Positions 1-29,523 of a stretch of 64,000 nt of DNA are shown in pieces (the stretch's first letter is position 1; the number at the start of each line of letters is the position of its first letter). Under the pieces are notes generated by a model. It was not told where the DNA came from, made no database searches, and saw only the letters and a program-made list of their open reading frames with translations. Source of the stretch: Letharia columbiana (lineage: Eukaryota > Ascomycota > Lecanoromycetes > Lecanorales > Parmeliaceae); contig NW_023501036.1 of assembly GCF_014066305.1 (NCBI RefSeq), forward strand, positions 2,057,501 through 2,121,500, in the 5' to 3' direction. The position numbers and the translations under genes were made by a program.

Positions 1-1
1 C

Positions 2-1647: not shown

Positions 1648-2167
1648 AATCCAAGCATTGCAAGCATATCTGCTTTCTAAGCGTGGCGTAGGCGGTGCGT
1701 CTGAATTTCTCGGATATTTCGCACCTAACTTATACGAATAGAACTGATACATTTGATTTTTGACCCTCCATCCACTACCTTCCCCATACTGCACCAAGTT
1801 TGTCCTGCATGCGAAAGATCTCCTTTGTGAAGACTATGTATCAGTCAGGGGTTCAGGGGCGATATTTGGTTTGAGAAGCACGCCTTGTAAGGCGACGCTA
1901 GGCAAGGAGTGTTACCGATTGGACAATGACCGTGGCGCGAAGTTTGCGCTCACTTTGCTTCTGCTTGCAGACAGTCATATTATGATACAACATAGTCACT
2001 ATAACAGCATTGACTCAGCGATCTTAGTAATGGCTTCGTGAGTCCACTAACAGCAAATTTCATCATCTGAGGAGTCTCTCACGCACTGTCGCAAACCTCC
2101 GCGCTCACCCGCACCGCAAATCAGCAGCCCCACATCAATTTCCCGACAGCACAAAAAAGTACACAGA
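1648..2167. other. Intergenic, MET10 3' side and TCO89-like 5' side
   Basis: No credible gene. It should hold the MET10 terminator and the promoter and leader of the downstream gene. The last 40 bases before the ATG are rich in C and A, as in fungal leaders. Confidence 0.5.
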
Positions 2168-3970
2168 ATGTCTGGCCGCGCCTCGCCATCACCAGGCAGA
2201 AGACCACAGCTAAACGAGCGCGCTTCATCCTCGGCTTCTCTCTCCAAGGGGTCTCCAAATACCGGTCATCTCTCCAAGTCGCACAACAAAGGATCCTCAA
2301 CCAAGCTGCACAAGGCGCATGCCGTCGGTCATGGACGTCACCCGTATGGAAGAGTGCCATCACATGGCAAGGGTCTACACAAGCTCTCCAAGTTGGGTCC
2401 TGGCGATGCAGGAGAGGTTGCAGGACACACGAGACACCATACTAGATCAGCGTCGCATACACCAACGGCCAGCCCAACAACACAGAACTTCAAGCGCAAT
2501 AGCTCTAATCTCAGCTTACCAAGAGTTGGGTCTAAGGCGTCTATAAAGAAGAATAAATCCGAAGTATCTCTGGGGCGGAACCCTTCATTGACCAAACTGG
2601 GGAACCAATCGAAGGGAGAGAAGGCGCAGACGAAGAATAGCTTGCGCAAAAAGGGCGATGATGATGGTCCCGTGAAAGGGCAAGCGAGCTTCGAGGTGGG
2701 AAATGAGGATCACGAGAACGATGACTGGACAGAGGAGAGCAACTCACAGTCACCCCATACCACTCGACATGGCTCAGTAGGTCGTAAGACTCCCCAACTG
2801 GAAGATCCTCCTTCGCCAGATGAGCCCGCAGAACCGTCTCCTCCAAATCTCCCTCAATCACCACCACAGTCTCCACCTAATAATCCTTCAGCTTTCGTCG
2901 ATCATGCAAAGGAGCAAGATCATCATCGAGACAGATCCCCATACTCTCACCCACCAGACGCAGACGACGTGACTCACCGTCTCCTCAATCGCAGTGCCCA
3001 CAACGCAGCACCTAAAACATCTAATGTATCGGCAACAGTTACACCAAATGGCTCCAGCGGTTCTCCAGCATTCGTTCACAGCCAGGACTCCGCATTCGGT
3101 AACAGGGATTCCATGCCCGGAGACGGCATATCTCGCTTCCTCAACGGCACAGGCTCGAACTCCGGCAGCGCAACACCAGGCTCTGTATCTCACCTTCAGC
3201 AAAATCTAGCACATCTCAACCACACCACCCACCATGACCGTCCAGGCTCTCCAACAGACTCATCCTCAACCGTCAAAGCCCCTACTCGCAGGGTCAAATC
3301 TGCGGCTAATCTGTCCCACCCGCGTCTCAGCAACGGCGAATCCAGCTCAGCATCTCCACCCATACCGAAACAATCCAATGGCAAGAACCCACTCAAGCCT
3401 CCAAAAGAAACTCGCGTCTCACCCTTCGAATCAGCCCGCGGCGCCGATCCCACTAAGGGCAAATCACTCACGCAGCTGAAGTTGGATCTGCAGCGCATGT
3501 CCACGCAGCGTGATCCACCATCCGATCAACACCCGCTCTTACAACACGGATCAGGTTTCGGAATCCAGAATCTCAGCGCTGGGTCGAAAGAGATGGAGGC
3601 GAGACAGGCAAGGCAGTGGACGCAGGCAAGGGTCGAGTGTGCGAATGCGAGGCGGTTCTATCCCGATTTGCTTGCTGGCAGTCTCAAGCAACAAGCTGTG
3701 CAGAGCAAGCTCGATGGGCGGAAATTTGATGGACAAAAGAAGCTGGATGGGAAGAAAGCGCCTGATGGGCACAAGGGGAAGAGCGTCAAGACGCCAGTCG
3801 GGAACTCTGGGGAGGCGTCGCACGGGAGGGGCAGAGTGAGATTTGAGGTGGGGAAGGGAAGCCCAGAGTTGGTGGAGGAGCATGAGGAGGATGGGCCGAT
3901 GGACGAAGGTGTAGAAGGGCTGCTGAGGAGGATGTGGGTGCAGGGAGAGACTAGTGGTGGAGAGGAGTAG
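2168..3970 (+). CDS. TCO89-like TORC1 subunit, low-complexity protein of 600 aa
   Basis: A single exon codes for 600 residues, very rich in Ser, Pro, His and Lys. Two stretches carry the family look: a basic Ser/Asn/Leu block at about residues 85-155 (FKRNSSNLSLPRVGSKASIK) and a C-terminal block at about 435-505 with LTQLKLDLQRMSTQRD and ARQWTQARVECANARRFYPD. This combination matches the fungal TCO89 family, a fungus-specific subunit of TOR complex 1 at the vacuole that takes part in nutrient and cell-wall signalling. No membrane segment or catalytic motif is present. The first ATG after a C/A-rich leader is chosen as start. The assignment rests on motif recall; a generic disordered fungal protein is the alternative. 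Confidence 0.65.
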   Translation: MSGRASPSPGRRPQLNERASSSASLSKGSPNTGHLSKSHNKGSSTKLHKAHAVGHGRHPYGRVPSHGKGLHKLSKLGPGDAGEVAGHTRHHTRSASHTPTASPTTQNFKRNSSNLSLPRVGSKASIKKNKSEVSLGRNPSLTKLGNQSKGEKAQTKNSLRKKGDDDGPVKGQASFEVGNEDHENDDWTEESNSQSPHTTRHGSVGRKTPQLEDPPSPDEPAEPSPPNLPQSPPQSPPNNPSAFVDHAKEQDHHRDRSPYSHPPDADDVTHRLLNRSAHNAAPKTSNVSATVTPNGSSGSPAFVHSQDSAFGNRDSMPGDGISRFLNGTGSNSGSATPGSVSHLQQNLAHLNHTTHHDRPGSPTDSSSTVKAPTRRVKSAANLSHPRLSNGESSSASPPIPKQSNGKNPLKPPKETRVSPFESARGADPTKGKSLTQLKLDLQRMSTQRDPPSDQHPLLQHGSGFGIQNLSAGSKEMEARQARQWTQARVECANARRFYPDLLAGSLKQQAVQSKLDGRKFDGQKKLDGKKAPDGHKGKSVKTPVGNSGEASHGRGRVRFEVGKGSPELVEEHEEDGPMDEGVEGLLRRMWVQGETSGGEE

Positions 3971-5029
3971 CTGTGTTCATTCAGGCGGTGGATTGCAGCC
4001 AAGGAGACGGGTGGCTGTGAGCTTTGAACATATGGTAGGCGATGATGCTTTATGAGGCCTGTCAATCGGAAGCGATGGTGTTGGGGGTGGAGCATTCCAA
4101 GGAGCTTGAGAGGTGCATTGTTGGACGCAGGGTCTTCAACCAGACTTATTCATTAGTTTGGCAAGAATTCGGGTTCGAGCTTGTATATACCATTGCCCTT
4201 AGGTGGGATATTTCAACACGCGCGTGCAAGGCTCATTGAGCCTTGCAAATAGCAGTTTAGAATGCTTCGGTGCTTCAAGATCGAGAACTCGAGATCATGT
4301 TACGTTGCTCGAGTATACTTGTACGATATCACCTTTTCTTACATTTCATCAAATGCGACAGATTTCGTGCTGAAAGTATACCTAGATTCCTAGTTCGCAG
4401 GCACTTTTGAAAGGAGCGGCTTGCTCCTAAGACAGGCTTTGCATGTGTCGACCACGACGACCATCAGCGTCGACGACAGACATGGCCAACATAACAAATG
4501 TGATGTCGGCGATGAATATGATAACGGCGATGACTCATGACGACAGGGAGGTAATATGTGGGCCGTGGTGAGATATATCTATGGGTCTAAGGCTTTGCGG
4601 ACGATACTCCCGTGGGCTCGCCATCTCTCTCATCAAATCAACCCTTCTCAAATCCCAGCCTGATCATTCGTCCAACCTATTCGCTCTGCAATTTCCCGCA
4701 TGACATATTAGGAAGGGGGGCATGCAGCTGTCAGCCTTTTTCTACTTTAGCGTAAGATAGAAGGCTGCATGCTCTGCGCCTCGCAAGCCTCGTCAACAAC
4801 TGTCAATGTTTCCATCAACATACATCATCTATCAAGCAGACAAAGCAAAAATCTCCGCCAGTCATCATCAGTTTTGTGCACGCTACTATCTGCTGATCGG
4901 AAAGAGAAGGCCAGCGGTGCCTTTTGACCAGAACCTGGCCTCTTGGAGGTTATAAAGTACCACTTCGGGTGGAATCACAGACTCTACTTACCAGCGCAGT
5001 CAACGAAGTGCAAATCAGGATTCAGCGCC
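3971..5029. other. Gene-free stretch before the NACHT pseudogene
   Basis: No supported gene. It contains an imperfect hairpin at 4720-4772 and AT-rich patches. It should hold the terminator of the TCO89-like gene and the promoter of the NACHT gene. Confidence 0.5.
4720..4772. repeat. Imperfect inverted repeat (hairpin)
   Basis: GCATGCAGC followed by CCTT after a six-base bulge is the reverse complement of AAGGCTGCATGC at the right end. It lies about 260 bases upstream of the NACHT start codon. Function unknown. Confidence 0.55.
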
Positions 5030-7120
5030 ATGAGCTTTGACTTTAGCATTGGCGATATCATCGCGGTGTCGCACCTGGCCAACAAGGTCCGCAAGCGCTT
5101 GGTGGACTCGTCTGATCAATTCAAGGCTGTCTCTGATAAGTGAGTCGCTCCCACTTCTTTTGAACGGTACCGAAGATACAAAGCCATGTCTTTTGATATT
5201 TGCGATGGTATGTCCACTTCGACAGCGCCTGTTGGATCCATAGTTTTCGCCTGTACTCTACACATCGTTCCTTATCATACCTTATCTTTCTTTGAAGCTA
5301 TTTGCTCTGATACATGTTGGTGTAGTGTCTTTGGGCTTCGATCGACACACCGAGAATCAAAAGGGTGAAAAGCCTCTCCAATATCCATCGTGACCTTGAA
5401 GAAGTCCTACCGGAGCGAGAACTCACGCCTCAGCAACACCAGGATCGCCAAGATCACATCCGAGGATGCGAGAATGTGCTCAAAGACTTGGACAAGATCA
5501 TGGACAAGTATGAAACTCTGGATGCCAATCTCGCAGGCTTCGGCAACAAATATCGAAAACTTTGGAAGAGCTCATGTTTGAGCCTGAAGGCTTGAGAGAA
5601 CTTCGCCTCCGATTGATCTCCAATATCGGGTTATGGAATTCTTTTACCGGTACACTTTCACTGTAAGTACAGATTTATATCGGAATGGATTCGCATTTCT
5701 TCTTGAGCATGCCAGCATTCTCCTCGGTAGTGGTTTGGCTTCCACCATGGCTAGGGCTACTTGATCTATAGAGTTGTCGTATCCACGATATACATGGTCA
5801 AGACAGCGGATAGTGCCGGTTCAACTTGATGAAGTCCTCGTTACTGCACACCCATACACATATAGGAGAGCAAGTCTCTCGATTTATTCTTTACAATGGG
5901 AAATGCGTTGCTGATGTTCGTGATCAAAAATAGCGGGCTTTCTAAATCGACCAAAGCTGGTGTAGATCTATTGAACAGAAATCAAAACGAGGAGCATCTT
6001 CGTACAGTTGCAGAACGGCTGTCAACTTCAGACTATCCTTCACAGCAGACTGATCTCTTCAACTAATGCCAGGAAGGGACTGGGCAATGGCTTTTTCATT
6101 CCAAAGAATTTCAAGCATGGCTTGACGGGACCGAGTCAACGCTTTTCTGTCCCGACATTCCCGGAGCAGGGAAAACGATGATAACATCCATCATGACAAA
6201 CAACCTTCAGCAACGTTTCCAGGGCGATAAGAAGGTTGGCATTGCTTATGTCTATTGCAATTACAAACGACAGCCGGAGCAGACCATCCACCATTTTATG
6301 GAAAGCCTGCTCAAAAAACTAGTTCAGCAACAGCCCAACCTGCCTGAACCAGTCAGCACTCTCTACTCCAGACATATGGAGAAACGGACAAGTCCATCTG
6401 TAGCTGGAACATCGACTGCTATACGCTCCATCGTCCATGGTCTCGCTAGAGCGTTTATTGTGATGGACCCTCTTGACGAATGCACTGACACGAACAAACC
6501 AAGATCGATTTTACTGGAAGAAATCGCGAACCTCCAAGTTCAACCAAATACACATTTCTTTGCAACCTCGCGCTTCATACCCGATATAAAAGCCAAGTTC
6601 AGAGGCATGGCAAACTTAGAGATACGGGCAACAGATGCAGATGTGCAAGCATATCTTGAGAATAAGATTTCAGAGACGCCAGTTTGTGTATTCACGCAAT
6701 CGAGCGCTGGAAGAAGAAATCCGGGCAGAAATAGTAAAATCAGCTGCTGGAATGTAAAACTTATCCATTGCTCTAGTCGACTAGACACCAAGTTGATTGG
6801 TATAGGTTCCTTCTCGCAAAACTTCACCTAGCGGTCTTTCCGACAAGGTTACAGCGAAGGATGTCAATATCGCGTTGCGGGATCTGCCTAAGGGATCAGG
6901 AGCATTGGAAATCACATACACACAAGCTTTAGAGAGGATCAAGGGCCAAAACCCAGGCTTTCGGCGGCTCGCTGAAGCAGTCTTATCCTGGATTGTTTGC
7001 GCCCCAAGACAATTGACCATCTAGACAACCAGTACGCTAGTATTGGTCTTGTCCTAAGAAGTCTTTCGGCGTATAGGTTTGCGTATGATACGTCATTCTT
7101 TGTCGGATCAGAATCTAGCA
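5030..7120 (+). pseudogene. NACHT-domain (STAND NTPase) protein, broken
   Basis: The start MSFDFSIGDIIAVSHLANKV is typical of the N-terminal domain of fungal STAND proteins linked to non-self recognition. An intron with GTGAGT follows at about 5138. Continuation pieces lie at 5365-5595 (VKSLSNIHRDLEEVLPE) and about 5573-5660. The NACHT core is at 6070-6830: Walker A CPDIPGAGKT near 6148-6180, Walker B FIVMDPLDEC, then IFATSRFIP-like HFFATSRFIPDIKAKF. Breaks: a TAA before CQEGTGQWLF near 6063, a frameshift near 6700 after which RNRALEEEIRAEIVKSAAGM is read in another frame, then a TAA, further shifts, and a stop after CAPRQLTI near 7021. The Walker B Ala of the usual DALDEC is Pro. No clear C-terminal repeat domain follows. 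It is most likely a decayed heterokaryon-incompatibility-type gene. Confidence 0.8.
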
Positions 7121-7397
7121 AGTTTTAGTCCTCTGACCCTAATTATAACACCAATCCGTCATGGTGATTTACCAGCGACTCCACCGGGTTTGGAACCTGT
7201 CTGGCGGTTCATGCACCTATTGCTGCAACTAGCGGAGATGGAGTGACCTAAGGTACCTTAGATCCTATTCCTACAAGGCTGCAGAGTTGCCATACAGACG
7301 AAGATGACATTTCGAGAGCGGAACAGACAACGCTCCAACGTCTTAGTCGTACCGCATTTCTTTTCGCAGTGCAGGTCGATCGCATTACATCGTCACC

Positions 7398-7909
7398 ATG
7401 TCTAACGCTTGTGAAACATTGAGCCCACGTCCGGCAGCAGTGACGGGCCCGACAACAACGATAAGTGCAGACAATTATCTTGGTCTTGAGAGTGATCGTG
7501 AGGAAGGTCCAACCCGATCGAGCAGAGACAAGTCCGTTGATCTGGAGAGTGGCAATGCCAAGGAACCAAGCACACAGAGAAACGAGATGAGGTTTGTCTC
7601 GGAAGCAGGTCGGTATACTACTAGACATATGAGACACCCTGAATACAATACTGACCAATTGTAGCTAGTAAGAATGAGACATTTTGGTCCAAAATTACGA
7701 AATATTGGTTCGCTCCATTATGCCATGTAGAGGAAATAGCAAGGCTGAGGCTTTCGAAAGAAGCTTGCTTATTGCAATACAACCTTCGAGACGCAGCAAC
7801 TCGTCCAGAGATCTATGAAGTAACAGGCTCAACACCACTCAGTCTGATAGCTCGCAGAAAGGATGATCCTGCCCTGGGAAAATGCCTATTCGATTTACTA
7901 CTGCGCTGA
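7398..7909 (+). CDS. Small hypothetical protein, 151 aa, two exons
   Basis: Not recognised. Exon 7398-7608, intron 7609-7664 (56 nt, GTCGGT to TTGTAG) and exon 7665-7909 give 152 in-phase codons including TGA. The N-terminal half is acidic and Ser/Thr-rich. The C-terminal half has KITKYWFAPLCHVEEIARLR and a stretch ending STPLSLIARRKDDP that faintly resembles one ankyrin unit. It follows the NACHT pseudogene by about 280 bases and could be a detached 3' part of it. The donor site is weak. Confidence 0.4.
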
Positions 7910-8118
7910 ACAAATGGCTTGACTCAAAGCCTCATACGATCTCATATGATAGTCAGAGCGAAGCGCTCGTTCCCATAGCAGGGTCAGCGTTGAATCCTCG
8001 TTTCTCTAGCAGGGCCAGCGTTGAGTGTGAAACACGGCGTTAGTAAGCAATATGAAGACGACGACGCTGCAACAGATGAAGATCCTCATTTCTTCTCCCA
8101 CACTTGCCCCAAGCCCAT

Positions 8119-9035
8119 CTATCTCATCCCCGCCTGCTGCTGCACCTGCATCTTCGCCGCCTCCATTTCCTGCTCAGTCGGCAAGTTGACAATCATCAGA
8201 TACAGCACATTCTGCTTCATCAGCTTCCTCTTCTGCTTCCACGCCTTCCTCTCTTGTTTCCTACTCGGTGCAACGCCCGCCTGGATCCTCTCCTCGCGTC
8301 TCCTCGCTCGCCGCTCAGCCTTCGGTGGGATCTTGCCGCCGGAAATCAGCGTGAGCCACGAGCCCCTGAATGCGGGATGGTTGGGATCGCTGACGCGGGT
8401 CCCGAAGTCGGGCTTGGGCAGGTCGAGGCGTTGGTCGGGGTTCTTGTGCAACTGGTGTCCGGCTTGTTAGTAGGCCGAGAAGGGGGGAGTTGGGGGGGGG
8501 AAAGGACATACGTAGGACGCCTGTGCCCGCTTGTCGTAGTAGTCTGTCACGAAGGCCATGCTGCTCTTCAGTTTGCTCGCCTTTGCCGGGTCTTGCGTCT
8601 GCGCGGCTTCGTCCAGGGCAGGGAATACCAATGGTGCAGAGTCTGGCATCTCGATCGCTCCGTACGACCGGCCCGCGTTTACTGCTCTAAAGTTCTGATA
8701 CGATTTGTGGGGCGCATTTTCTTTCCTGATGATCGTGTTCAGGTCCGCTTGCTGCACGGATATTGGTCTTGTCCCCTGGGGGATGTACTTCATAACCATG
8801 GCGTACAGACCCCTGGGCTTGAACAACTTGTCGTTCATCTCGTCAAGGAAGCTGTGGGTGCGCTGTGTAGTCTGCATGTAAATGGCTGCCCCAGCGGCGA
8901 ATTGAATGACGATACTTGTAATCTGGCTGATTGGCTCTGGGACGAGGCCTACAACGCCTGCGGAGACGAAGACGACGTTTAGCAGTGGCGATGCTTGTGA
9001 CGCTGCGTGGAAGGTTTGGATGAAGGATAGGAAAG
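8119..9035 (-). pseudogene. 3' half of a split membrane-protein gene (uncharacterised fungal family)
   Basis: On the minus strand, 9035-8512 and 8451-8119 join across a 60 nt intron (GTATGT to CACCAG) in phase. The part begins FLSFIQTFHAASQASPLL, has a hydrophobic segment (NVVFVSAGVVGLVP, then ITSIVIQFAAGAAIYM), then FLDEMNDKLFKPRGLYAMVM, a basic Arg-rich stretch and VLYLMIVNLPTEQEM near the end. I recognise this as the C-terminal part of a Pezizomycotina family of unknown function whose N-terminal part has PVIIPQRRPGARDRGF. That N-terminal part is at 13584-14230 on the opposite strand. Position 9025 continues position 14230 exactly, with the 10 bp duplication counted once. The total is 647+514+333 nt, or 498 codons including stop. 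The half lacks its own start. Confidence 0.88.
9026..9035. repeat. Target-site duplication A, copy 1
   Basis: GATAGGAAAG directly precedes the GGGC end of the first element. Its partner is not at the other end of this element. It is the reverse complement at 14221-14230, before the second element. Confidence 0.9.
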
Positions 9036-9948
9036 GGGCAAATTACCGAATCATACCCCGAAAGTACGAATCCTTACCGAATCATACCCCTAATTACCGA
9101 ATCATACCCCTACACCAAATCACACCCAAATATAAGGTATGATTCGATAATTTGCTATTGCTTGGGGTATGATTTAGTAAGTTATCAAAGTGGCCTCAAA
9201 CTACGAAGGAGATAATCCGCGATCTAGCCTGTCTAACCATAGAAGTAAGGGATTTTCTCTAACCATATTTGATAAGAATTCTATCAGTCTGAAAATATTA
9301 GATGAAAGTCGAGTGAAGGTAATTTCGACTGCTCGAAGGCTAAATCACATCTTACGCTTTAAGATTTACGGGGTTTATATTAGTAGCGACCCCTATGGGG
9401 GTCTTACGAAGGCCTTACGAAGGCCCTACGGGGGTAAATATTTAAGTTTAAATAAGAGTATTCTAGCTATTAAGCGTATTATTATAGATATTATTATTAG
9501 TAACTTAGCTAAAAAGGCTAATCTCGAGGGTGTCTACGCTTAATAGCTAGAATACCCCTATTTAAACCTAAATATTTACCTTTATAAAGCCTTCGCAGAG
9601 CCTTCGTAAAGGTCGCTATTAATAGTTTACTGCCCCGAAGACACTTTTAAGATCCTCTTAAATACCTAGATTATCCTATATTTTATACTATAAATACCCT
9701 TATTTAGGCCTTTATAGGGGTCTTAAAAAATAATTTCTAATAGATATCTAGCTATATCTATAAGTAGGTTATTTAAGTAAATCACTATAGTAAGTATAAA
9801 TCCTTATTAAATTATACCCCAAGCAATAGCAAATTATCGAATTATATTCTATATTTAGGTGAAATTTGGTATAGGGGTATAATTCAGTAATTAGGGGTAT
9901 GATTCGGTAAGGATTCATACTTTCGGGGTATGAATTAGTAATTCGCCC
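9036..9948. mobile_element. Mutator-like miniature element, copy 1 (913 bp)
   Basis: The ends are GGGC...GCCC. The terminal inverted repeats are about 150 bp and consist of repeated TTACCGAATCATACCCC units: three direct, then two inverted, in each arm. The interior has a fold-back pair around TTCTAGCTATTAAGCG and CGCTTAATAGCTAGAA. There is no transposase frame, so it is non-autonomous. Target duplications of 9-10 bp and long terminal repeats point to the Mutator superfamily. The left arm is nearly intact, while the right arm carries many C-to-T and G-to-A changes, so RIP is partial. It is inverted relative to the copies at 14231 and 16840. Confidence 0.88.
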
Positions 9949-9958
9949 AGCATGCAAA
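9949..9958. repeat. Target-site duplication B, copy 1
   Basis: AGCATGCAAA directly follows the first element. Its reverse complement TTTGCATGCT directly follows the second element at 15145-15154. Confidence 0.9.
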
Positions 9959-11790
9959 GCGCCTGTTTTGATATTCTACCTGAAGCTTTCGTAGCATTTA
10001 TACGCGTTCCGTGTTATATTTTGGCGGGTATCACCACTTGTTGGGGAACTGCCACTGTAAATCGCGCAATGCAGTCCAGTCTCAGGGTTCTCGAACCGTA
10101 AGCTTCCCACGAAATGCGGTATACATGACATCCCTTTTTTCGTCGGCGCAGCGATACCTAACTTACTAACGGATGCTGCACTTCTCTCGATGCCGACTCC
10201 CTATATTTGGCGGATGCATAGTACTAGGTCGCAAAAGGGAACGGTTACTGGTATGTCTATGCTTGGTGGTTTGTATGTAATACTGTATCTACGGCAACGT
10301 CCTTTCTTACCGAACTCTCTCTAGTGTCTTGTGCGGACTGACCACAATTCCCCAGATCTGGACTACGACTTCGCTTATGCCGGTACTTGATCAATAACAG
10401 AATGTGATATTGCAATCGTTTCTGGTATCCTGATCCAAAATCGTTCACAATCAACAAAAAGGCTAGCTAACTCACGCGGCAGCTTGTTCACCATCCCTCC
10501 GACTAGTACTCCCCCAGGTCATCTACAATAATCCCAATCTGATGGTACTGCGCTCGAAAGGCTATGTTCCCGGTCGGAGTACAATCCAAATCACCCTTCA
10601 GCGAGTACTCAGAGCCATGGCGAACCACACAGCGAGATGAGCAGTCACCACAAGCTTATGATACTGTCAGATAAGACACACGGCATCTTGGTTGTGGGTC
10701 AATCTCATGCAACCGTCATTGCAGGGAAGAGAGAGATGCGTGGCCAAGAAGATATTGAGATGCTGCCATCAACCACGCCAGCTGATGGTGAGATCAGTGT
10801 ACAGCGTCATTTGAACGTGAACTGGGCATAGATCCACTAAGGGCTTAGTGCATGATCTACAATTCGAAATGTGGCATGCAGGACTACGGTCTCTACGATC
10901 TACCAGACTGAGCTGTCCACATTAACTTGAGTCTGCAGCTATAGAACGGACTCACCGCAGTATCGGAAGTCAAAGCTCGCATACGTAGATAGACCACGCT
11001 GAGAGTCAAGCACTACTTCAATGATTCCTTCATCGTCGCTACCATGCCAGACCCAGAACCGTACGACACGCAGACAGACCCAATGCAGTAGAACTTGACA
11101 TTATCTCCTACTCCGCTCTTTCCCAGCAGAGACTGACATCATGAGGTGGACACTTACCAACGACGCATTGCAAAACATTTTTGTATAACGTACAGATGAA
11201 TGACACTTCCGCATCACAGCGGTCTGCAGGCTCTTCGGCGAACATGTTCTTGTCGTTGTTTTCGACAAGGACATTAAAGAGGCGTACATTGACACCAGTG
11301 CCGAGGGTCATGCGTTGGCGGCCAGCCTACACCATTTGTTGGTTGTGGGCGTGAGTATGCTTCGTGAGATTCACCTCCCGAGTATTCTTCTTTCTCCTCA
11401 TCTCCCAAACCTGGCAACAAGGCGCTGAGCATTTGCCGACGTCAGCTTCCTCAGGCTCTCGGTTGTCTGCCGACCGAAGTCAATTACGAACTGTCTTTGT
11501 CCAACTCAAAAGGCTTGGAGAATTAGATACTTCCCAAACAAGTCATTGTTACTTTCCCTTCTCAGCGCAGATTCAGTACAAAGGAATCTACAAAGACAGG
11601 ACACAAGAGGCGCAATGTAATTGTCGCCACCCAGAGGCTGTCTTTGTGTAATCCTCGACGCTTTATGCTGATATGTTCTCAACCTATAAAAGCATCCAGC
11701 CTTCATCATCTTTCCATACGCAAAAGCATCCAGCCTTCAACATCTTTCCATACCCACAATCAGCCCCAATTCACAAGTCTTTACCACAAC
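9949..11790. other. Gene-free part of the inverted segment
   Basis: I see no gene with recognisable protein features on either strand. Short open frames are not supported. The last 100 bases before 11791 are C/A-rich and should be the leader of the RING gene, with a short repeated CATCCAGCCTTCA motif near 11694-11732. Confidence 0.45.
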
Positions 11791-12406
11791 ATGTCGCAAT
11801 CTTTTCTCAACCAGCTACTCAACAATCCCGAGAACCGCGTACAATCGGAACAAGGCGAACAATGCAGTATCTGTCTTGAAGAGTACGATACACTAAACAC
11901 ATCGACCGGAACGATCGAGTGTCAAATCCGCCTACCCTGCAACCACAGCATAGGCTCATTATGCGTCGTCACCTGGCTTCAAACAGGCAAAAATTGCCCC
12001 GTCTGCCGGGCAGTATTCTTCGGTGCTGCATCCCTACCGGCTACCACCAGAAGGGACGACGGACCAGGAGTGCCCTTGAGCGAGTCTCAGGGAAACGAAT
12101 CCCCAGCCCTCTTCGTGGCGGACATTTTCCACAACCTCGATTTTCCCCGCAGGCCCGCAGGGCCATGTTCCTACGCAGATCCTAAGGTTGGCAACATCAA
12201 TGGCCAGCCGCTTCACGGAATTCCCCAACGGCCAAGCCTTTTCTACACGCTGCGTCGCCGCCGTCAACATTTACATGGCCGCACGTATCTGGGGTCGAAG
12301 CTTAGATCTGAGGGACATCGCGCGAGCAGCCGGCATCGAGGTGCATGAGGTGACGCATCTTTATCAAATTATGTACCCGCTTCGAAACCAACTGACTCGC
12401 ATGTAG
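11791..12406 (+). CDS. RING-finger protein with TFIIB-like cyclin-fold C-terminus (exon structure unresolved)
   Basis: The ATG at 11791 opens MSQSFLNQLLNNPENRV, then a RING-like finger: CSIC, LPCNHSIGSLC, then NCPVC. The ligand usually found two or three residues after the first His is Gly here, so one metal site may be altered, though small fungal RING proteins often vary at this point. A second frame, about 12150-12406, carries VNIYMAARIWGRSLDLRDIA, AGIEVHEVTHLYQIMYPLR. This is like the second cyclin repeat of TFIIB (AAIYMAS...EIGDIAGV...YRLIYP). Joining the two needs an intron or a one-base shift between about 12070 and 12180. Candidate acceptors CCCCGCAG (12152), CCCGCAG (12160) and ACGCAG (12178) exist, but no good donor. 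A RING E3 ligase role is inferred only. Confidence 0.65.
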
Positions 12407-13583
12407 ATTCTTGGGCAACGTGGTAGTTCAAGGGGGCAGAGGGAGTAATTTCAACCCACTTGAGTGATATGCACACGCTTGGTTAGAAAATACAAACAGC
12501 ACTGTTGCAGTTTATCCATTTCCTAATCATGTCTTTTAAGGCAAGAATACTGTTTAAAAAGATAAATCGAATTTGATTTTCAACAACCCTCCTCTTGTAA
12601 TCGCCTGTGTTGATTATAGAGCCGTATGGAATGATTTTTGTCACCTAAGATGAAGTGCCTCTTCGCAATTTGCGGTCCTCTCGTTATGTAATGCGGCAGA
12701 TAAACTCATTCGATTTCAATTTGCATGGAACGAATAGAGATTGCGGGCTCACTCAAGGATAGTGAAGAAGGATCATCGATTTGCTCTAATCGTATGGGAA
12801 ACGCTACACTTAAGCTTTTCCCTACGATTAATGTATCTGGCGTATCTTTTCAAAGCTGGAAGTCCTAATTTAGCTCAATTCTGCTATTCTGCAGTGATAA
12901 AGCCTAGATAACGAAAGTAAGAAGTTCAACATATGATGAGCTGCTGACAAATGTCGATCAATCTGTGCACAAGAGGTTGAAGCAGAGGACTCTCTCGATC
13001 ATCAGAAGACGGAACAAAAAAAAGACCACCCTACAGAGGTAGAACTCCCCAGCTCATAACGACGATCGTGGTCCCGACAGCAACCTACTGCCGACCACCA
13101 GATCTCCTCAACTCAATTTGGTTGTGATTGAAGAACCGTTGACGGAGACGACGCCCGATATGCCATTCGAGGACGTTCCCAAAAGCTCCACTCGGGATTA
13201 CCGCGGCTGTAGATGAATGGTACCTTTATAAAGAACACTCGAGCTCCATGGTCACCCAGGAATCTTGACCTGGAGATAGCTCCATCTTTCCAAAAGAGGA
13301 GTTTCAATGAGAATTGACGGTCTTTCCAAATCAAAGCGGTATTTAAGATTCCGACTCGAGTTTTACAAGTTCATTTTTTGTTATCAGATATTCCTACTCT
13401 CTTAACCTAAAGTACAGCTGCGAAAGAACCCCAACGGGCAGTCCCGCTAGGGTAAGATTAGTACGACAGGGGACTGCTGGTGGGGAACCGTCCGTAGCTG
13501 AGTAAGAGCCCCACGACTTTACAACGGCGGTACAACGGACTTTTTCTCCTATTCTTCTTCATTCCTCCATCTTTTACATCAGC
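12407..13583. other. Gene-free stretch, promoter side of the split gene
   Basis: No supported gene. The last 40 bases before 13584 are pyrimidine-rich with TTCTTCTTCATTCCTCC, like a fungal leader. It includes the hairpin at 13428-13489. Confidence 0.45.
13428..13489. repeat. Imperfect inverted repeat upstream of the split gene
   Basis: ACCCCAACGGGCAGTCCC and GGGACTGCTGGTGGGG pair over about 15 of 18 positions around a 25-base loop, about 95 bases before the ATG. It could form in the 5' leader. Role unknown. Confidence 0.5.
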
Positions 13584-14230
13584 ATGGGTGTCCTTGTACG
13601 ACTCATTGGCTCTGGTGTTGGCCTTGCAGCCGAAGCCATCGCTTCAAAGAAACAGAGATCGCGCTCAAACTCCCCTGGAGCTAATCTGTCCCCCCAAGCC
13701 TCTGCCTCGAGCACCAGGGATATAGGACCTTCCTCTTCAAGCAACAAGAGCGAGAAGAAATCTTCAAAAGCGCGTGAGGCACACGAAGACTTTGAAGAAC
13801 CACCGCCAGCCTACGAACAAGTTGTCGAAGTACCCGAAGAGCGGGCAGACGAGCTCATCGCAGATGGGAAAGCGTTGCCCTTGGACGAGAAACACGGTCC
13901 AAGTCAGGAAAGAGAGGGCCACGAAGATGACAGCGACAGCGACAGCGAGGGCGACGAAGCGAATTGGGCTCTTGACGAAGCAGCCGAAGAAGTCGCAACG
14001 CCCGGAGCCGAAGATCCCAAGCTCAAGTACGGAATGATGGCACAGCCGACGATCGAATCGTTCAGCGCGGTGGTGATGTCGAAATGCCCGCCTCTGAAAC
14101 ACCCGACAAATCCGCTGCAACGACCTGTTATCATTCCGCAGCGAAGACCCGGCGCTCGAGACCGCGGCTTCATCCACGCTTACTCGCCGGACCTCGCCGA
14201 AAAAGGCATTTCCGAAGAAGCTTTCCTATC
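13584..14230 (+). pseudogene. 5' half of the split membrane-protein gene
   Basis: The ATG follows a pyrimidine-rich leader. The part codes for MGVLVRLIGSGVGLAAEAIA, a Ser-rich linker, an acidic stretch with PPPAYEQV and DDSDSDSEGDEANWALDEA, and the conserved block RPVIIPQRRPGARDRGFIHA up to ISEEAFLS. At 14230 it runs into a transposon and the frame reads on to a stop at 14264, which would add a short foreign tail. The rest of the gene is at 9025-8119 on the other strand. The TTTCCTATC at the break is the same coding sequence found at the other half, repeated as the target-site duplication. Promoter and start are intact, so a truncated protein of about 226 residues without the membrane part could still be made. 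Confidence 0.88.
14221..14230. repeat. Target-site duplication A, copy 2 (inverted)
   Basis: CTTTCCTATC is the reverse complement of 9026-9035. Confidence 0.9.
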
Positions 14231-15144
14231 GGGCGAATTACTAATTCATACCCCGAAAGTATAGATCCTTACCGAATCATACCTCTAATTACTGAATTAT
14301 ACCCCTATATCAAATTTCACTTAAATATAAGATATAATTCGATAATTTGCCATTACTTGGGGTATAATTTAATAAGAATTTATACTTGCTATAGTAATCT
14401 ATTTAAGTGGTTTACTTATAGATATAGCTAGATATTTATTAGAAATTATTTCTTTAAGGCCCCTACGGAGGCCTAAATAAGGATATTTATAGTATAAAGT
14501 ATAGGATAATCTAGATATTTAAGAGAGCCTCGAAAGCGTTTTCGAGGTAGTAAACTATTAATAGCGATCTCTACGGAGGCTCTACGAAGGCCTTATAAAG
14601 ATAAATATTTAGGTTTAAATAGAGATATTCTAGCTATTAAGCGTAGATACTCTCGAGATTAATCTTTTTAACTAAGTTACTAATAATAATATTTATAATA
14701 ATACGCTTAATAGCTAGAATACTCTTATTTAAACTTAAATATTTACTCTTATAAGATCTTTATAAGATCTTCGTAGGGCCTTTATAGAGGTCGCTATTAA
14801 TATAAATCTTATAAATCTTAAAGCGTAAGGTGTAATTTAACCTTCAAGCAGTCGAAATTATCTTCACTCGACTTTTATCTAATATTTTCAGATTAATAGA
14901 ATTCTTATTAAATACGATTAGAGAAAATCTCTTACTTTTATAATTAGATAAGCTAGATCGCGAATTATCTTCTTTATAGTTTAAGGCTACTTTAATAACT
15001 TATTAAATCATACCTTAAGCAATAGCAAATTACCGAATTATACCCTATATTTGAATATGATTTAATATAGGGATATGATTCGGTAATTAGGGGTATGATT
15101 CGGTAAGGATTCGTACTTTCGGGGTATGATTCGGTAATTTGCCC
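14231..15144. mobile_element. Mutator-like miniature element, copy 2 (914 bp)
   Basis: This is the same element as copy 1 in opposite orientation and almost equal length, with GGGC...GCCC ends and repeated ATTCGGTA/TACCCC units. It is more AT-shifted than copy 1 in the middle. The outer ends stay readable. No coding capacity. Confidence 0.88.
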
Positions 15145-15154
15145 TTTGCATGCT
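15145..15154. repeat. Target-site duplication B, copy 2 (inverted)
   Basis: TTTGCATGCT is the reverse complement of 9949-9958. Confidence 0.9.
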
Positions 15155-15396: not shown

Positions 15397-16830
15397 CTAA
15401 CACCGGACCCAGCAATCAATCTGTTTCTTCTACAATCGGTGACCAGTTTCAGCTTCTAAGAACGCCTCGCTTGGAGAATAGAAGTGAGTTACACATACCG
15501 CATCAGTGTCCCCATATTCGCGTCCACACACTGGACCATCCTTTGGCTCCCATCCTCCATCCGTGCAACTCACCACCCCCGTCGTGGTATTACTGGTCCA
15601 GCTCAAATCTCCCTGGGTGAACTGGATATAATCGCCTTCATGCTCTCCTGTTATCATGATAGCCAGCCCTAGCCGAGGTTGGAATGAATAGGTGTCTCCG
15701 ACGTTGATAGGCATGCCCAAAGGATAGGTGTAGTTGATCGCCGTCTCGCCAATGGTGTCCCCGTTGCCGTTTGCCATACTCACATTTGCAAACAAGTCGG
15801 AGCTTTCGGCTCCACAAAGTTCATACTCGTCGACGTGAATCTTGCAGGTGCTGGTAGCAGAGACTTGCGTGGCTGTGGCTGTGCTCGAGGGAGCTTCTGG
15901 CGGGGACGTTCCCCTAAACTCGGTCCACAGGCTCGCGTCAGGTGTGGCGTTGGGGATGTCCGGGTTGCTTGGAGCCACGAAAGATGCAGGAAGTACGGTG
16001 CTAAAGTTGACAGGTGGGTAGAGATCGGCCTCCGTGGTGGACGAGGAGGATATGAAACCGGACTGTGCTTGATATACCTTGCGAGGAACGGGCGGAAAGA
16101 CAGATCTAAACCATTCTTGGATATATATCGCTGAATGCCATAACAGTCAGGGTGGCTCTCATGCATGGGTGTAAACGCAGCTCGTGGGAGGACAATAATC
16201 ATGCGGGATCATCGGAATAGAAGGTGTGCAAGTCCGGGAATCACACGCTAACGAAAAGTTTTTGAACCTATCAAGGCAGGACGTGATTCAAGGAACATAA
16301 TCACTCACATAGGGCGGCACAGCCATAGGAGTCAGCTATGGAGGCTATTTTCAGCAATTCAGTCATTCGCAGTCATCCGACACATTGACTTACGAGTGAC
16401 ATAAGACCAGTAGGCCCCCTTCAACTTGGCCTGGTCCCAAATGGATTGAGGGCCGTTTGCATAATCCCTAGTATTTGGTTGAACCACTGTGGAGTCGAAG
16501 TGGTAGGTTTCGTGATACAAGATCGTTGCTCGATTCTCATAGAAGTTCTCCAAGATGTTCTTCTCAGCTGATGGGTTAGGCATTTTGGATACACTCCTGA
16601 TTGTGTCCATGAGCGTGGGTTGGGCAAAGTAGAGTTCGCACAAGGTTATGTAGTGATTCGTCCAGAATGTTCCGACTTGGCTATGTGTATAGCCGGCAGA
16701 CAGTGGATATTTAGTGCAATAATCTTGGTGCCAGTCATAACAATAGAAGTACAAATACGTGCTACGAGGTGCGTTCTCGGTGTCGAGAGCATGGCGTCTT
16801 GCAATGTTGTCCCCAATGATTTGCCTGAAG
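15397..16830 (-). pseudogene. Secreted HEXXH metallopeptidase, 3' block of a doubly interrupted gene
   Basis: Minus-strand exons are 16830-16394, a 27 nt micro-exon 16335-16309, 16130-15499 and 15429-15397. All join in phase across GT-AG introns of 58, 178 and 69 nt. The active-site motif is ILYHETYHF (HEXXH), followed by VTPDSYG. That spacing resembles fungal lysine-specific or deuterolysin-like (M35-type) zinc peptidases, in which an Asp after HEXXH is the third ligand. A Ser/Thr-rich linker and a Cys-rich tail with GGWEPKDGPVCGREYGDTDA follow; the last exon ends CWVRC. Together with 17763-17550 and 31680-31473 the coding length is 1,551 nt (516 residues). The function would be extracellular protein breakdown. 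As it stands the gene cannot make the full protein. Confidence 0.85.
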
Positions 16831-16839
16831 TTCAAGTCC
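16831..16839. repeat. Target-site duplication of miniature element copy 3, left
   Basis: TTCAAGTCC stands before the element and again at 17550-17558 after it. It is exonic peptidase sequence (minus strand GGACTTGAA, coding DLN). Confidence 0.92.
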
Positions 16840-17549
16840 GGGCGAATTACTAATTCATACCCCAAAAGTATGGATCCTTACCGAATCATACCCCTAATTA
16901 CTGAATCATACCCCTACACCAAATTTCACCTAAATATGGGGTATGATTCGGTAATTTGCTATTGCTTGGGGTATGATTTGATGAGGATCTTAAATGATAG
17001 CTTTCTGATATGAGAGGGTTTAATGAAGTTAATGGTAGCGGTAGGCTTACTGAGCGTCTGGTAGTAGTCGTCGACTTTTTTGACGGTGGTATTTACGCTG
17101 CGGGCGGGGTTCGGGGCGAGGTTTGACCCCCGAAGCTTACCCCACCCCGTTGCGCAGCGTAGTAGGAATTATTCCTTCGGGGGCCCTACGAGGCCCTACG
17201 GGGCCTATAGGACCCGAATAGGGGTGTCTGCAGCGTGAAGTGCGGACACCCCCGGGCTCGAAATTTCGCCCACTCGGCTTTCGTCTGATGTTTTTAGGCT
17301 GATAGAATTCTCATCAAATGCGGTCGGAGAAACTCCCTTATTTCTATGATCGAATAAGCCAGATCACGGATTATCTCCTTCGTAGTTTAGGCCACTTTGA
17401 TAACTTACCAAATCATACCCCAAGCAATGGCAAATTACCGAATCATACCCCATATTTGGGTGTGATTTGGTGTAGGGGTATGATTCGGTAATTAGGGGTA
17501 TGATTCGGTAAGGATTCGTACTTTCGGGGTATGATTCGGTAATTTGCCC
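16840..17549. mobile_element. Mutator-like miniature element, copy 3 (710 bp)
   Basis: GGGC...GCCC ends, the same TTACCGAATCATACCCC arrays, and a perfect 9 bp target duplication. It is shorter than copies 1 and 2 and its interior is GC-rich (around 17095-17270), so it is a separate subtype. It shows little RIP. It sits inside a peptidase exon. Confidence 0.92.
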
Positions 17550-17768: not shown

Positions 17769-17917
17769 TGTTGGAATTCGGATCACGTGACTCTTGGCGT
17801 CTTGGCGATCACGTGACATGGTTATATAATACGCCTTAGCGTATTTATATCTAATCGCTCTTTTCTTTATAGTAACTTTATAATTAATAATTAAATATCT
17901 TATCTTATATTTCTATA
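17769..17917 (+). repeat. Left (5') LTR
   Basis: It begins TGTTGGAATTCGG. The first 50 or so bases are almost unmutated. From about 17820 on, C and G are replaced by T and A relative to the right LTR; the end TTTCCACA has become TTTCTATA, two CpA-to-TpA changes. Confidence 0.9.
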
Positions 17918-20900
17918 GATTATAAGCTTAAACTCTACTTAGTAATTATTATATTATAATTACTATTTATCTTTATAACTATAATTACTCTTAGACTTTT
18001 AATATCTATTTTATAATATCTAAAATTTATTATATAAAGATAGTAATAGCTATAGAGATATTCTTTTAATCTTTTTAATAAAAATATTTTTTTCTTTTAA
18101 AATAATTATAAATTTAAATAAGTATAATTAATTAATAATATAAGAGATTAAAAATTATTTTTATCTTTATTTTAAGTAAGCTAAGATATATTATCTTTAA
18201 TCGAAATATTAAATTTATTAAATTTATTAAATATATAATTATATCGTTATATAATTAAGTTATATTATTAAGATTCTTTAAATTTTATTAACTTTCGCTA
18301 AATTAGAATATTTAATTTTATTAAAAATAAAATTATTTTATATTAATATTAATTTTAAAATTATATATTAATTATTAAATTAATAGCTATTAATTAAAAG
18401 TAATTAAATACTAATATTAATAATCTAATTATAATCTAGAATATTTTAAAATTAATATTATTATCTCTTAATATATTTATAAATTTATTAAAATTAAAAT
18501 AATAAGAATATTTTATTAATATTAGCTTTTAAGCCTTTAAAAGTCTTTTAAAGAAAAAAATTAAGACTCTATTATCGAATTCTTTTTCTATATTTATTTA
18601 TATTTTATTATTATAATTATAAAATTAGAATAATTTTTAAAGTTTTATAATAGTAATTAGCGATATAAATATTTTAAATTTAAATTTTTAAATAAATAAT
18701 ATAAGAAGAATATTAATTTCTCTCTAAGAAGAAGATCTATATATTTATAATAATTATACTTTATATAATTCTATTAGAAATTAGTTTTTATTTATAAATT
18801 ATTTTTATTATTAAATATTAAATATTTTAATTATATCGTCTATATCTATCGTAATTTTATATATAAATATTTTTTATTCTTTATATAAGAATTTAAAATT
18901 TAAAGGCGATAGTTAATTAATATTAATAAGATTTTTAAAAATTTTAATAATAATTAAAGTATTTATTCTACTTTCGCTACTTTATTAAATAATAATTTTA
19001 TTAATTTTAAATTCGAAGTTAGTAAAGATATATTTAGCTTTATAAATAATATTAAATTATTTAATTTTTATATTAAAATATTTATTATATTTACTTTAAA
19101 GCTATTTTTAGAATCTTTTTTTAATTTTATAATCTTATTTAAAATAGTAATTAAATTATTATTATTATTATTATTATTACTCTTTTTATTAATATTCTAT
19201 ATATCTTTATATAGATTATTTTCTAATAATAATAAATTTAAATAATTAATTATAGTACTTTATAATTAAGATTTAATCTTAATTTAATAAAAATAATTTT
19301 CCTCTAATTTTTATTTTTATTTTAGAATTTAATATAAGATATATTAGATAAAGATAAGATATTAAAAATTAATTAATATTTAATAATCTTTTATTTTTTA
19401 TTAAAATTATTAAGTTTAAAATTTATATAATTATTTTCTAATATCTTAAATATAATAATTATTAGTTTATCGAGATTAATTATAATAATAAATTTTTTTT
19501 AAATAATATTTAATATTATCGCTAAATATTATAAGTTTAAAAGATTTAAACTTTATATAGAGTTAATTCATTAATTACTTAATATTACTCTTATCTTTTA
19601 AAAAGATATTTATTAATATAAAAAGAACTTTTATAAGATTATTATTAAAATTATTAATTTATATAAATCGCTCGCTTTATTAAAGCTTTTTTTAATTTAA
19701 GTTATTTAACTCTTTTTATAAAATTTAAAAACTCTTTTAATATCTTTATAATAATTTATATCTAGATTTATAAGCTATATAATGATAAGATTATTAAATT
19801 TAATAAAATTATTTATATCGCGATAAATAAAGAGATTTATTTACTATTATTTAAAGACGATAATATCGCTATATATACTATTTATAATAAAAATAATAAA
19901 AATAAAAATAAATAATTTATTAAATATTATAAAATTAATAATTCGAAAATTAATTACGTAATTTACTCTTTATATAAAATTATTAAATATAAATTTAAAT
20001 ATTTCTTTATTAAATATTAGACTAAGTTCTCTTATCTAAAATTTAAAAAGTTTATATTAAATAAGAAAAAAAAGAAGAAGACTTAAATCGTTACGATTAA
20101 TTTTAATAATATAAAGAAAAGTTTTAATATTAAGCGTAAGCGTATTAAAGAGATATTTTTTAACATCTTTATTTTAGAGAAGAATAAATATTTTAATATT
20201 AACTATATCTTTTTAAAAGAATTAGATTTAATTATATATTATATTAATTTTAATTCTAATAATTTTAATATTTTTAATATAATTAATAATAAGAAAGTTA
20301 TTAATTTAATAATTAATAATTTTAATTTAAAGTATAATTTAATAATAGCTAATTTTATTAAGTTATACTTTTTATATAGTAATAAACTCTAATTACTTTT
20401 ACTATTTCTTTATTAATTATTTAATATTTAATATTTATAAAAAGATTTATTTTTATTCTATTTATAATATTAAAGATAATTAAGTTTAACTTTTTAACTA
20501 TAATATTATTAGCTTAAATTACTCTATTTAAAATAAATATATAAATATTATTTTATTTAATATCTTATATATATTTAATATAAATATTAATTTTCTTTTT
20601 ATTAATAAACTCTTAAATATTAATATTATAATTATTTTTTATAAAATTAATTACGCTTTAATTAAAGATAATTTAAAGCTTATAAATACTTATAATCGAG
20701 ATTTATTCTTTTTTAATCTCTAAAATAATTTAAATAATATTTTAATAATATATAATATTTTTTTAAACTCGATTTATTAACTCTAATATATTTATATAAA
20801 TTATTTAAATTAATAAAATTTAAATAAACTTTTCTCTATAATAATAGATATAAATTCTATTAAAAATATTATAAATAAATATATTTATAAGTACTATATT

Positions 20901-22399
20901 ATAAGATATTAAAAGATTATCTCTTATATTAATTCTATTATATCTAATATATAATTAAATAAATTTATTTATAATAATTTTATAGAGTTTTTATTTTTTA
21001 TTAATTTTAATAACTATAAATATTTTATAATATTTAAAAATAATTTTATCTTCTATTTTAAAGTTTATTATATTTATTATAAGAGTAAAATCTTCGCTAT
21101 ATTTTTATAATTTAAAATTTATCTTAAATTATATAATTATAAAATCTTTTATATTTATCTTAATAATAAGAGTAAATATATATTTAAAGTTTTTTTTAAT
21201 TATCTTACTTTATTAGATATTAAATAGAAATTTATTATCTTTAATAATTTTTAAATAAATAATATAACTAAGTATTTTAAATAAATCTTATTATATAAAA
21301 TATATTTTATTTTTTTAAATTTTAATCTTAATAAATCTTTTTAATTTTAAATTATTATTATTATTAATTATTTAATAATATAATTATCTAATATTAAAAC
21401 TATTATAATTTCTTTTAAAATCTTTTATTAATAAAAGTTTATTTTTTTCTACTTATATATAATTAATTCTATTATTTATATAATAAAAAAAATTTAAAAA
21501 AAATTTATAAATTAAAATAAAAAGTATATATTATTAGAGTATAAGAGAGAGTATATCTTTCGATTATATAATCTTATAAAAATAATAATTATTTATATTA
21601 ATAATATATACTTTATAAAAAAATAATTTCTAATTATAGATTTAAAAGAAAAAATTAAAATTTATAAATATTTAAATAAATAATAATATTTAATAGTATT
21701 AATATTCGCTATAGAGAAGATATTAAATAAGTAATATATTATTAATATTTTAAAAGATATTAAATTTAAAGAAATATTAGAAAATATTATATTTATAATT
21801 AAAATAGTTATTAAATTTTTAATAATTTTTAAATTTTTAATATTTATAAAATTAAAATTAAATTTTTTATAGTTAATTAATAAGCTAGCGTTTTCGTGAA
21901 GATTTATATAAAAATTTTTAATATAATATATCTAATTAATTATATAAAAATTTTTAATTTAAAAATTTTTAATATAAAATTTTTAATTTATTTAATTAAA
22001 TATTATATTTATATTTATATTAATAATTTAATTTATATTATTTATATAAAAAATTTTCTTAAATTTAAATTTAATATTTATTATTATTAAAATTATATAA
22101 ATTATTCGCGAAGATTATTAATTAAATATTATTTAAAAAATAGTATATAATTATTTAAATCTTATAATTTTAAATCTATAAAATCTATTCTCTAATTCTC
22201 TTTTAAATTTTTTTATAAAATTTATTCTACTTATAAACTATATTAATAAATTAAATATTTTTAAATTTATTATTTATAAGTAAATTATATCTAATTAATT
22301 ATTTTAAATAAATTAAAAACTTTTTATAAAAATAAATATAATTTTTTTATAAATAATAATACTTAATATCTTATTTAGACGTCTTTTAAAACTTATATT
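17918..22399 (+). other. RIP-degraded leader, gag, protease and integrase region of copia copy 1
   Basis: The sequence is almost purely A/T and no protein motif can be read with confidence. Its place between the 5' LTR and the reverse transcriptase is where gag, protease and integrase lie in copia elements. It reappears in reverse complement at 24500-29370. Open frames here, such as 21896-22090, are by-products of composition. Confidence 0.6.
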
Positions 22400-23687
22400 T
22401 TAAAAAATAAATAAATTTATATCTTAAAATAAGATCTTAATAAAAAAAATATTTATTATAAAATATATTAAATTATTTAAAAATTTAAATAATAGAAGAG
22501 CTATAATTATTATAATACTTTTATATTAATAATAAAATTTATAAATTATAAAATAATCTTTATCTTTATAATTATTTTAAATTAAAATCTAAAATAAATA
22601 AATATTAAAATTATCTTTTTATATAATAATATAAAAATAGAAATTTATATATATTAATTTAATAATTTTAATAAAAATAATATTAAGATTTATAAGTTAA
22701 ATAAAATACTTTATAATTTAAAATAATTCTTTTAAATTTAATATTAATATTTTTTAAAATATATAAAAAAGCTAAATCTTCTCTCTATTAAATTAAATAA
22801 TAATATATTTATAAATCTTAAAAAAGAGTATTATTATAGCGCTTTATATTAATAATATCTTAATTATTAATTTAAATAAAATTGAGATTTAATAGATTAA
22901 GAAGAAATTTAATATAAAGTTTTATATATTAAATTTAAAATTATATATCTACTATTTAAATATAATTATTAAAAAAAATTATTATAGCGATATTTTTTAT
23001 TTAAAATAAGAGATTTATATTATTTAGTTTTTAAATTATTTTAATTATTAAAATCTTACTCTAGTATTAATATCTTTTAAAATTAATTATAAATTAATTT
23101 TTATCGAAAAGAATTATATCGCTTTAAAGAAATTATAAAAGAATTATTAATCTATAATTAGATTTCTTATATATACTATACTCGATATTTATCTTCATAT
23201 TATTAATATAATATTATTAATAAATTATTATTTAATTAACTCGACTTTAACGTATTAGAATATAATTATTTAAATCTTTTAATATCTAAAAAATATAATT
23301 TATTATAAATTTATATATAAAGATTTTTTTAAGAACTTATTAATAATATTAATTCTAATTAAATTAATAATATAACTTAAAAATTTATATCTAATTATTT
23401 TTTTAATATAAAAAATAATATAATTAATTAATTATCTAAGTATTAAACTATTATAATATTATTTATTTATAAAATAGAGTATATTAATTAAATATAAATT
23501 ATTAAAAAAATAATTTAATTAAAAAATCTATTTAATTAACTTTTTTATTTTAACGATATAAATTTTAAAGTTATTATTATTTTCGATAATAATTAAAGTA
23601 TAATTATCTTTATAAAGAACGCTTAATTCTATACTCGTACTAAATATATTAATATTACTTATTATTTTATTAATAATATCGCGTAAA
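22400..23687 (+). pseudogene. Copia reverse transcriptase and RNase H remnant (copy 1)
   Basis: Decayed but ordered motifs: KIYKLNKILYNLK* at 22685 (from the LYGLKQ motif), YINNIL at 22845-22862 (from the catalytic YVDD motif, Asp codons changed to Asn by G-to-A), LIYTILDIYLHII at 23166 (the region before the RNase H), and DNN*SIII then FYTRTKYINITYYFINNIA at 23585-23687 (the RNase H end). Stops stand where Gln codons are expected. RNase H after reverse transcriptase, and the form of the last motif, are those of Ty1/copia. Confidence 0.85.
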
Positions 23688-29374: not shown

Positions 29375-29523
29375 TATAGAAATATAAGATAAAATACTTA
29401 GTTATTAATTACTAAGTTATTATAAAGAAAAGAGCGATTAAATATAAATACGCTAAGGTATATTATATAACTATATTATATAATTATTAAGACGTTAAGA
29501 ATTACGTAATCCGAATTTTAATA
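29375..29523 (-). repeat. Third LTR, reversed
   Basis: Read on the minus strand it begins TATTAAAATTCGGATTACG and ends TTTCTATA, exactly 149 bp like the outer LTRs, with RIP changes all along. Confidence 0.88.

Follow-up and report, generated by a model that had tools for sequence, protein, structure and literature searches.

Exchanged target-site duplications mark a very probable transposon-made inversion in the lichen fungus Letharia columbiana

The Galileo inversions 2j, 2q7 and 2z3 of Drosophila buzzatii are the closest described counterparts of the locus examined here, which consists of two oppositely oriented copies of a 0.9-kb transposon in a 64,000-nucleotide stretch (the window; C1:2057501-2121500) of the assembly of Letharia columbiana, a wolf-lichen fungus (52,243,142 bases in 161 contigs). 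In the Galileo cases, inverted copies of one element lie at both breakpoints with exchanged target-site duplications, and un-inverted chromosomes carry the target once and no element (PMC2775673). Thus, exchanged duplications at transposon-made inversions are already known. According to that report, the exchanged duplications look alike after ectopic recombination and after hybrid-element insertion, and the copies tell the two apart, chimeric ones indicating ectopic recombination and identical ones hybrid-element insertion; for 2z3, chimeric copies led to the conclusion of ectopic recombination (PMC2775673). Hybrid-element insertion with both ends taken from the same site on sister chromatids is predicted there to give an inversion, identical copies and divided duplications. 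Among fungi, impala of Fusarium has been named for non-standard transposition (PMC8225341). The Letharia locus resembles the Galileo inversions in its inverted copies and exchanged duplications. It differs in that its duplications are of 9-10 bp, whereas Galileo, a member of the P superfamily, makes 7-bp duplications; in that the host is a lichen fungus with mutation resembling repeat-induced point mutation (RIP); in that an un-inverted counterpart is at hand for one junction (junction A) only; and in that the partner copies, unlike the chimeric ones of 2z3, show no transversions between them. Whereas the aberrant transpositions of P elements and Ac/Ds are mostly experimental or fresh and have a known transposase, the event here is natural and is deduced from sequence. 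Among the papers listed by literature searches, no title or displayed abstract opening described a transposon-made inversion of this kind in a lichen fungus.

An earlier note on this DNA, made from its letters alone, had described copies 1 and 2 (W1 and W2; Table 1) as inverted relative to each other, and their alignment over 913 bases bears this out, with 88% identity, 109 transitions, no transversions and one 1-base gap; the longest exact run that they share is 71 bp. The note had also paired the ten bases on the left of one copy with those on the left of the other, and likewise on the right, as reverse complements. Both matches are exact, base for base, and neither copy has matching flanks of its own, each scoring -2 for an own duplication on a scale on which a perfect 10-base match scores 10. 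Inverted copies of one element thus stand at both breakpoints, and the duplications are swapped between them. Copy 3, a shorter family member nearby with an ordinary duplication, served as a control.

Table 1. Positions, within the window, of the element copies, their flanking 10-mers and the interrupted gene
Feature	Position	Strand	Description
Copy 1 (W1)	9036..9948	-	913 bp; 0.9-kb element, GGGC...GCCC
Copy 2 (W2)	14231..15144	+	914 bp; same element as copy 1
Duplication A, GATAGGAAAG	9026..9035	+	left of copy 1; exact reverse complement of 14221-14230
CTTTCCTATC	14221..14230	-	left of copy 2; exact reverse complement of duplication A
AGCATGCAAA	9949..9958	+	right of copy 1; exact reverse complement of duplication B (15145-15154)
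Duplication B, TTTGCATGCT	15145..15154	+	right of copy 2
Segment read as inverted	9959..14220	.	4,262 bp; 4,282 bp including the two 10-mers
Copy 3	16840..17549	.	shorter family member with its own 9-bp duplication, TTCAAGTCC
5' part of conserved gene	13584..14220	+	open reading frame (ORF) cut at junction A; frame continues in the reverse complement from 9025 downwards
3' part of same gene	8119..9025	-	putative intron between about 8467 and 8451

Matches of this kind could in principle arise by chance beside two unrelated insertions that had lost their own duplications, and decayed or missing duplications do occur in several family copies (counting the four swapped ones, 12 of 25 fall short of a score of 8.5). 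We compared the flanks of 74 element ends of this genome, all against all. Among the 2,701 resulting pairs, 12 matched at 10/10, of which nine were the two ends of single elements, two were the swapped flanks of copies 1 and 2, and the remaining one joined the outer ends of an element on contig C8 that has a nested copy inside it; no perfect match was left unexplained beside the two exact 10-mers in swapped positions. When flanks were letter-shuffled over all pairs of 25 elements in 400 runs, the best joint swap score was at most 4.5, against 10 for copies 1 and 2. The earlier note had judged a chance match very unlikely, and the end-pair comparison and the shuffling agree, leading us to reject chance matching as the explanation of these flanks. 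At junction A it is excluded by an empty site on another contig, described below; this site and the break in a conserved gene fall exactly at the junction, so that the likelihood of coincidence is negligible.

The last 12.5 kb of contig C64 proved to match C1 from 1.3 kb ahead of the window onward and to include a near-identical second copy of the left flank, with 99.0% identity over window positions 1-3231 and 94.7% over 3232-9035. At L026:5717-5726 on C64, window position 9035 runs directly into reversed 14230-13757 (97.7%), GATAGGAAAG being present once and the element absent. By sequence comparison, this is the empty, un-inverted site A. The gene at this point tells the same history. A computed join of the two flanks at junction A gives one reading frame, and the natural C64 sequence holds the same frame open across the junction. 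A search found 198 relatives, and all 17 that were picked for alignment from the 120 listed read through the point (EEAFL/SFIQ in the Letharia copies), with a protein match to Pseudevernia consocians at 90%; a 387-aa paralog on C61 does likewise, and the homologs P0001 and P0005 hold both the 5' and the 3' part of the cut gene. Since the frame is whole on C64, in the relatives and in the C61 paralog, the present order at junction A is, as judged from the frame, the derived one and breaks a conserved gene. An apparent stop within the split gene was considered as a premature stop and rejected, as P0001 and P0005 carry the sequence on either side of it in one protein; their continuity across it suggests an intron. 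Neither piece of the gene matched a Pfam family above its cut-off.

Because the swapped duplications are exact, junction A is un-inverted on C64, and the frame is whole there and in relatives yet cut here, we regard the inversion of the segment between copies 1 and 2 as very probably real. The proposal that the whole 4.27 kb between the copies was turned around is thereby supported at junction A, where C64 confirms the reversed order for 14230-13757; the rest of the segment, beyond 13757, is unconfirmed by C64. The un-inverted order without elements, which the note had advised looking for, was found in the same assembly for site A and has no counterpart for site B: no empty allele of site B was found, and its right flank has no second copy in the genome. 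The missing empty allele of site B counts against the explanation favoured below, as does the end of C64. From L026:6190 onward, C64 switches to window 10744-12559, read in its present orientation, before the contig ends, which, taken at face value, speaks against a simple inversion of the whole of 9949-14230. This tail (L026:6190-8004) is only 86% identical to window 10744-12559, its 1,880 alignment columns containing 82 gap openings, with many gaps of 1-5 bases, and its join interrupts the junction-A gene at about codon 58, a point at which both window and relatives are intact. On account of the noisy sequence and the broken gene, the tail looks like uncorrected long-read sequence and is judged unreliable.

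When whole thalli of L. lupina and L. columbiana were sequenced by MinION, three Letharia genotypes were reported per sample (PMC10512270), and we infer that the present assembly came from that study. Differences between window 1-9035 and C64 show no one-way C-to-T bias, and a 3-kb piece farther in (C64:100001-103000) has no match elsewhere in the genome. We read the C64 end as another genotype of the same thallus, in which case the genotypes within a single thallus probably differ in the inversion; a segmental duplication of the C1 region is the alternative. Along window 1-9035, divergence is 0 in a stretch of about 1 kb and reaches roughly 5% elsewhere.

Contig C28 has a further pair of this kind. 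Copies C28a (624699-625612) and C28b (657734-658646), at loci L003 and L004, lie 33 kb apart in opposite orientation and lack own duplications. As reverse complements, their left flanks agree at 7/10 with three transitions and their right flanks at 7/9 with two, and all five transitions have A or T on the side of C28b, the more AT-rich copy. The joint swap score of 5.5 was reached in none of 400 letter-shuffled runs and in 54 of 400 runs with permuted real flanks of 21 other elements, a control that is poorly designed in that true partners can land in swapped positions. Of 20 copies whose flanks were measured for GC, the C28 copies also show the largest flank-to-flank steps, 0.218 and 0.214, followed at 0.184 by a copy with its own duplication, and reversing the inversion would join GC 0.50 to 0.42 and 0.28 to 0.21. 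No notable reading frame crosses the C28 breakpoints; the left flank of C28a matches only itself in the genome, and among the matches listed for the right flanks none reaches the breakpoints. We conclude that C28 probably holds a second inversion with swapped, decayed duplications. Its presence on another contig speaks against the possibility that the window pattern is an artefact, in which a MinION assembly was misjoined at the repeats and the real chromosome has own duplications at each copy. A misjoin at inverted repeats would give the same pattern, the sample is reported to contain three genotypes (PMC10512270), and a suspicious join lies nearby on C64. Set against this, the two copies are 12% different, with no shared exact run beyond 71 bp, and at less than 1 kb they are presumably short for long reads. 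An artefact is quite improbable.

The 0.9-kb element has terminal inverted repeats of about 146 bp, and 13 of 25 two-ended copies score at least 8.5 for an own duplication of 9-10 bp. In detail, ten have perfect 10-bp duplications, two perfect 9-bp ones and one a match at 9/10, while five are decayed and seven have none. Four of these seven are the two swapped pairs; among the other three is C24, whose paired ends gave none and for which an alternative end pair gave 7/10 with three transitions. Separately, the C8 element (C8:585358-588178; L060, L010) is a family element broken by a nested copy at 585928-586754, both with perfect 10-bp duplications. Mutator-like elements (MULEs) make target duplications of about 8-11 bp and have long terminal inverted repeats. 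The present family agrees with MULEs and their non-autonomous derivatives in duplication size and in its long repeats; MULEs differ in being moved by a transposase, whereas none is tied to the present family. The family thus resembles MULEs and is called MULE-like only. The genome has eight matches to the PF10551 profile, all with stops, and none lies near an element end among those listed, a part of 380 end matches. The 6.4-kb element L064, whose ends are related, lacks any ORF of at least 90 aa, and its six frames, with stops read as residues, matched no Pfam family above its cut-off, giving only a weak Ribosomal_L28 hit (E 0.045).

Copies 1 and 2 are strongly skewed in composition. Their GC contents are 0.345 and 0.286, their TpA/ApT ratios 1.29 and 1.23, and their (CpA+TpG)/(ApC+GpT) ratios 0.57 and 0.41, the last of these being 1.18 in the segment between them; copy 3 is far less affected (0.469, 0.94 and 0.93, respectively). 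Mutation in copies 1 and 2 appears to be RIP-like on these indices, and the context of the W1/W2 differences is not restricted to CpA. With mutation of this type, transitions can be told from transversions, which are older, and sister copies become recognizable.

We compared copies by their transversions. From the matches listed by a search that scored 40 of 206 candidates, 39 family regions were clustered, a sample of the family, and pairs were examined by alignment in three classes (357 pairs aligning over 600 bases or more, 61 over 400-600 and 233 over 240-400; the other 90 of the 741 pairs have shorter alignments). Only two of the 357 pairs had no transversions, namely W1/W2 and C28a/C28b; the next two pairs had one each, and no pair without transversions occurred among the 61 or the 233. 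At 36 transversion-variable columns, the swapped partners agree wherever both have a base, and ten transversion columns are private to the C28 pair. Because the two swapped pairs alone lack transversions among the 357, swapped partners look like sister copies by this sequence measure. This bears directly on ectopic recombination between two unrelated resident copies. Such recombination fits the swapped duplications and opposite orientation taken alone, but it does not predict sister-like partners; that no sampled copies are closer to each other than the partners, and that the C28 pair has ten private columns in common, largely refutes it and leaves it very improbable.

The swapped signature alone is no proof of recombination between two old copies, which the earlier note had named as the cause. 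The inversion itself is very probable, as argued above; the mechanism is not established, for aberrant transposition leaves the same flanks. Sister-like partners are what a one-step aberrant transposition predicts, and the lack of transversions between W1 and W2 tilts the case towards it. A non-autonomous DNA transposon of about 0.91 kb, making 9-10-bp duplications, would have been present at site A in the conserved gene in one genotype. In an aberrant transposition, element ends from two site-A copies on sister chromatids (hybrid-element insertion), or ends joined replicatively, would then have inserted at site B on the same chromosome, about 4.3 kb away. This single event would have produced the second copy in opposite orientation, flipped the intervening DNA and split duplications A and B between the copies, and (further) RIP-like C-to-T mutation of both copies would have followed. 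Copies born identical are consistent with the W pair, whose transitions and single gap, with no transversion, would be later RIP-like mutation. We infer the one-step route, the order in which things happened and the involvement of sister chromatids, and the account as a whole is an even call. Aberrant transposition between two separate elements was considered and rejected, as it should leave a deletion or duplication (PMC2775673), and none is seen at junction A on C64.

Several observations weigh against the one-step account. No transposase tied to the family was found, either through PF10551 profile matches or in L064, and only two such events, the W pair and the C28 pair, are at hand. No transversion is private to the W pair, whose sister relation thus rests on an absence of difference. 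Mutations shared by the partners exceed independence (79 against 39 expected in the W pair, 150 against 106 in the C28 pair), and two tested non-sister pairs exceed it too (72 against 48.5 and 87 against 53.3); shared transitions are thus no clean mark of sisterhood. Moreover, the share of mutations carried by each partner changes mid-element, from 20:21 to 62:6 in the W pair (0 of 2,000 permutations) and from 40:5 to 34:35 in the C28 pair (1 of 2,000). The change forms no clean reciprocal switch in either pair, and it may reflect patchy RIP or be the mark of a crossover between already mutated copies.

Given this shift in both pairs, recombination between fresh sister copies is a serious rival. 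On this two-step route, a local hop would have placed an inverted sister about 4.3 kb off with duplications of its own, and homologous recombination between the two, before RIP, would then have flipped the segment. The swapped duplications would be no different, and this is how the Galileo inversions were concluded to have arisen (PMC2775673); fresh sisters would presumably recombine more readily than RIP-mutated copies, and the load change could be the crossover mark. The route needs an un-inverted intermediate, yet, outside the two swapped pairs, every sampled pair aligning over 600 bases or more carries transversions, and no sister pair with own duplications occurs among the 39 sampled regions; the load changes, as noted, form no clean reciprocal switch. 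We consider the two-step route possible, though we lean against it.

Returning to the one-step aberrant transposition, we offer tentatively, as a generalization falling a little short of an even call, that this non-autonomous family multiplies locally by aberrant transposition of a replicative type, producing a sister copy and an inversion in one step, with RIP scars following. If this is true, inversions made by transposition can be read from this genome, with two so far on record, unlike the recombination-made Galileo ones. Few natural inversions keep readable birth marks, and recombination and aberrant transposition are usually hard to separate later; here a single small element family provides two candidate inversions, together with an un-inverted junction in the same assembly. 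The window inversion cuts a conserved gene and, if polymorphic, is directly genotypable.

Other features of the window were recorded alongside. A RING finger match lies at 11644-12348, inside the inverted segment, an NPHP3_N (NACHT-type) match at 6178-6831, and an M35-type metallopeptidase match, below its cut-off, at 16359-16865. A large AT-rich inverted repeat occupies 17775-29517, its two arms, each made up of matching pieces with 75-93% complementarity, measuring roughly 5.5-5.9 kb and the spacer between them about 0.4 kb; it looks like two mutated repeats lying head to head. Degenerate repeat arrays were found at 39653-41178 and 45591-46727, their units measuring roughly 64 and 96-130 bases.

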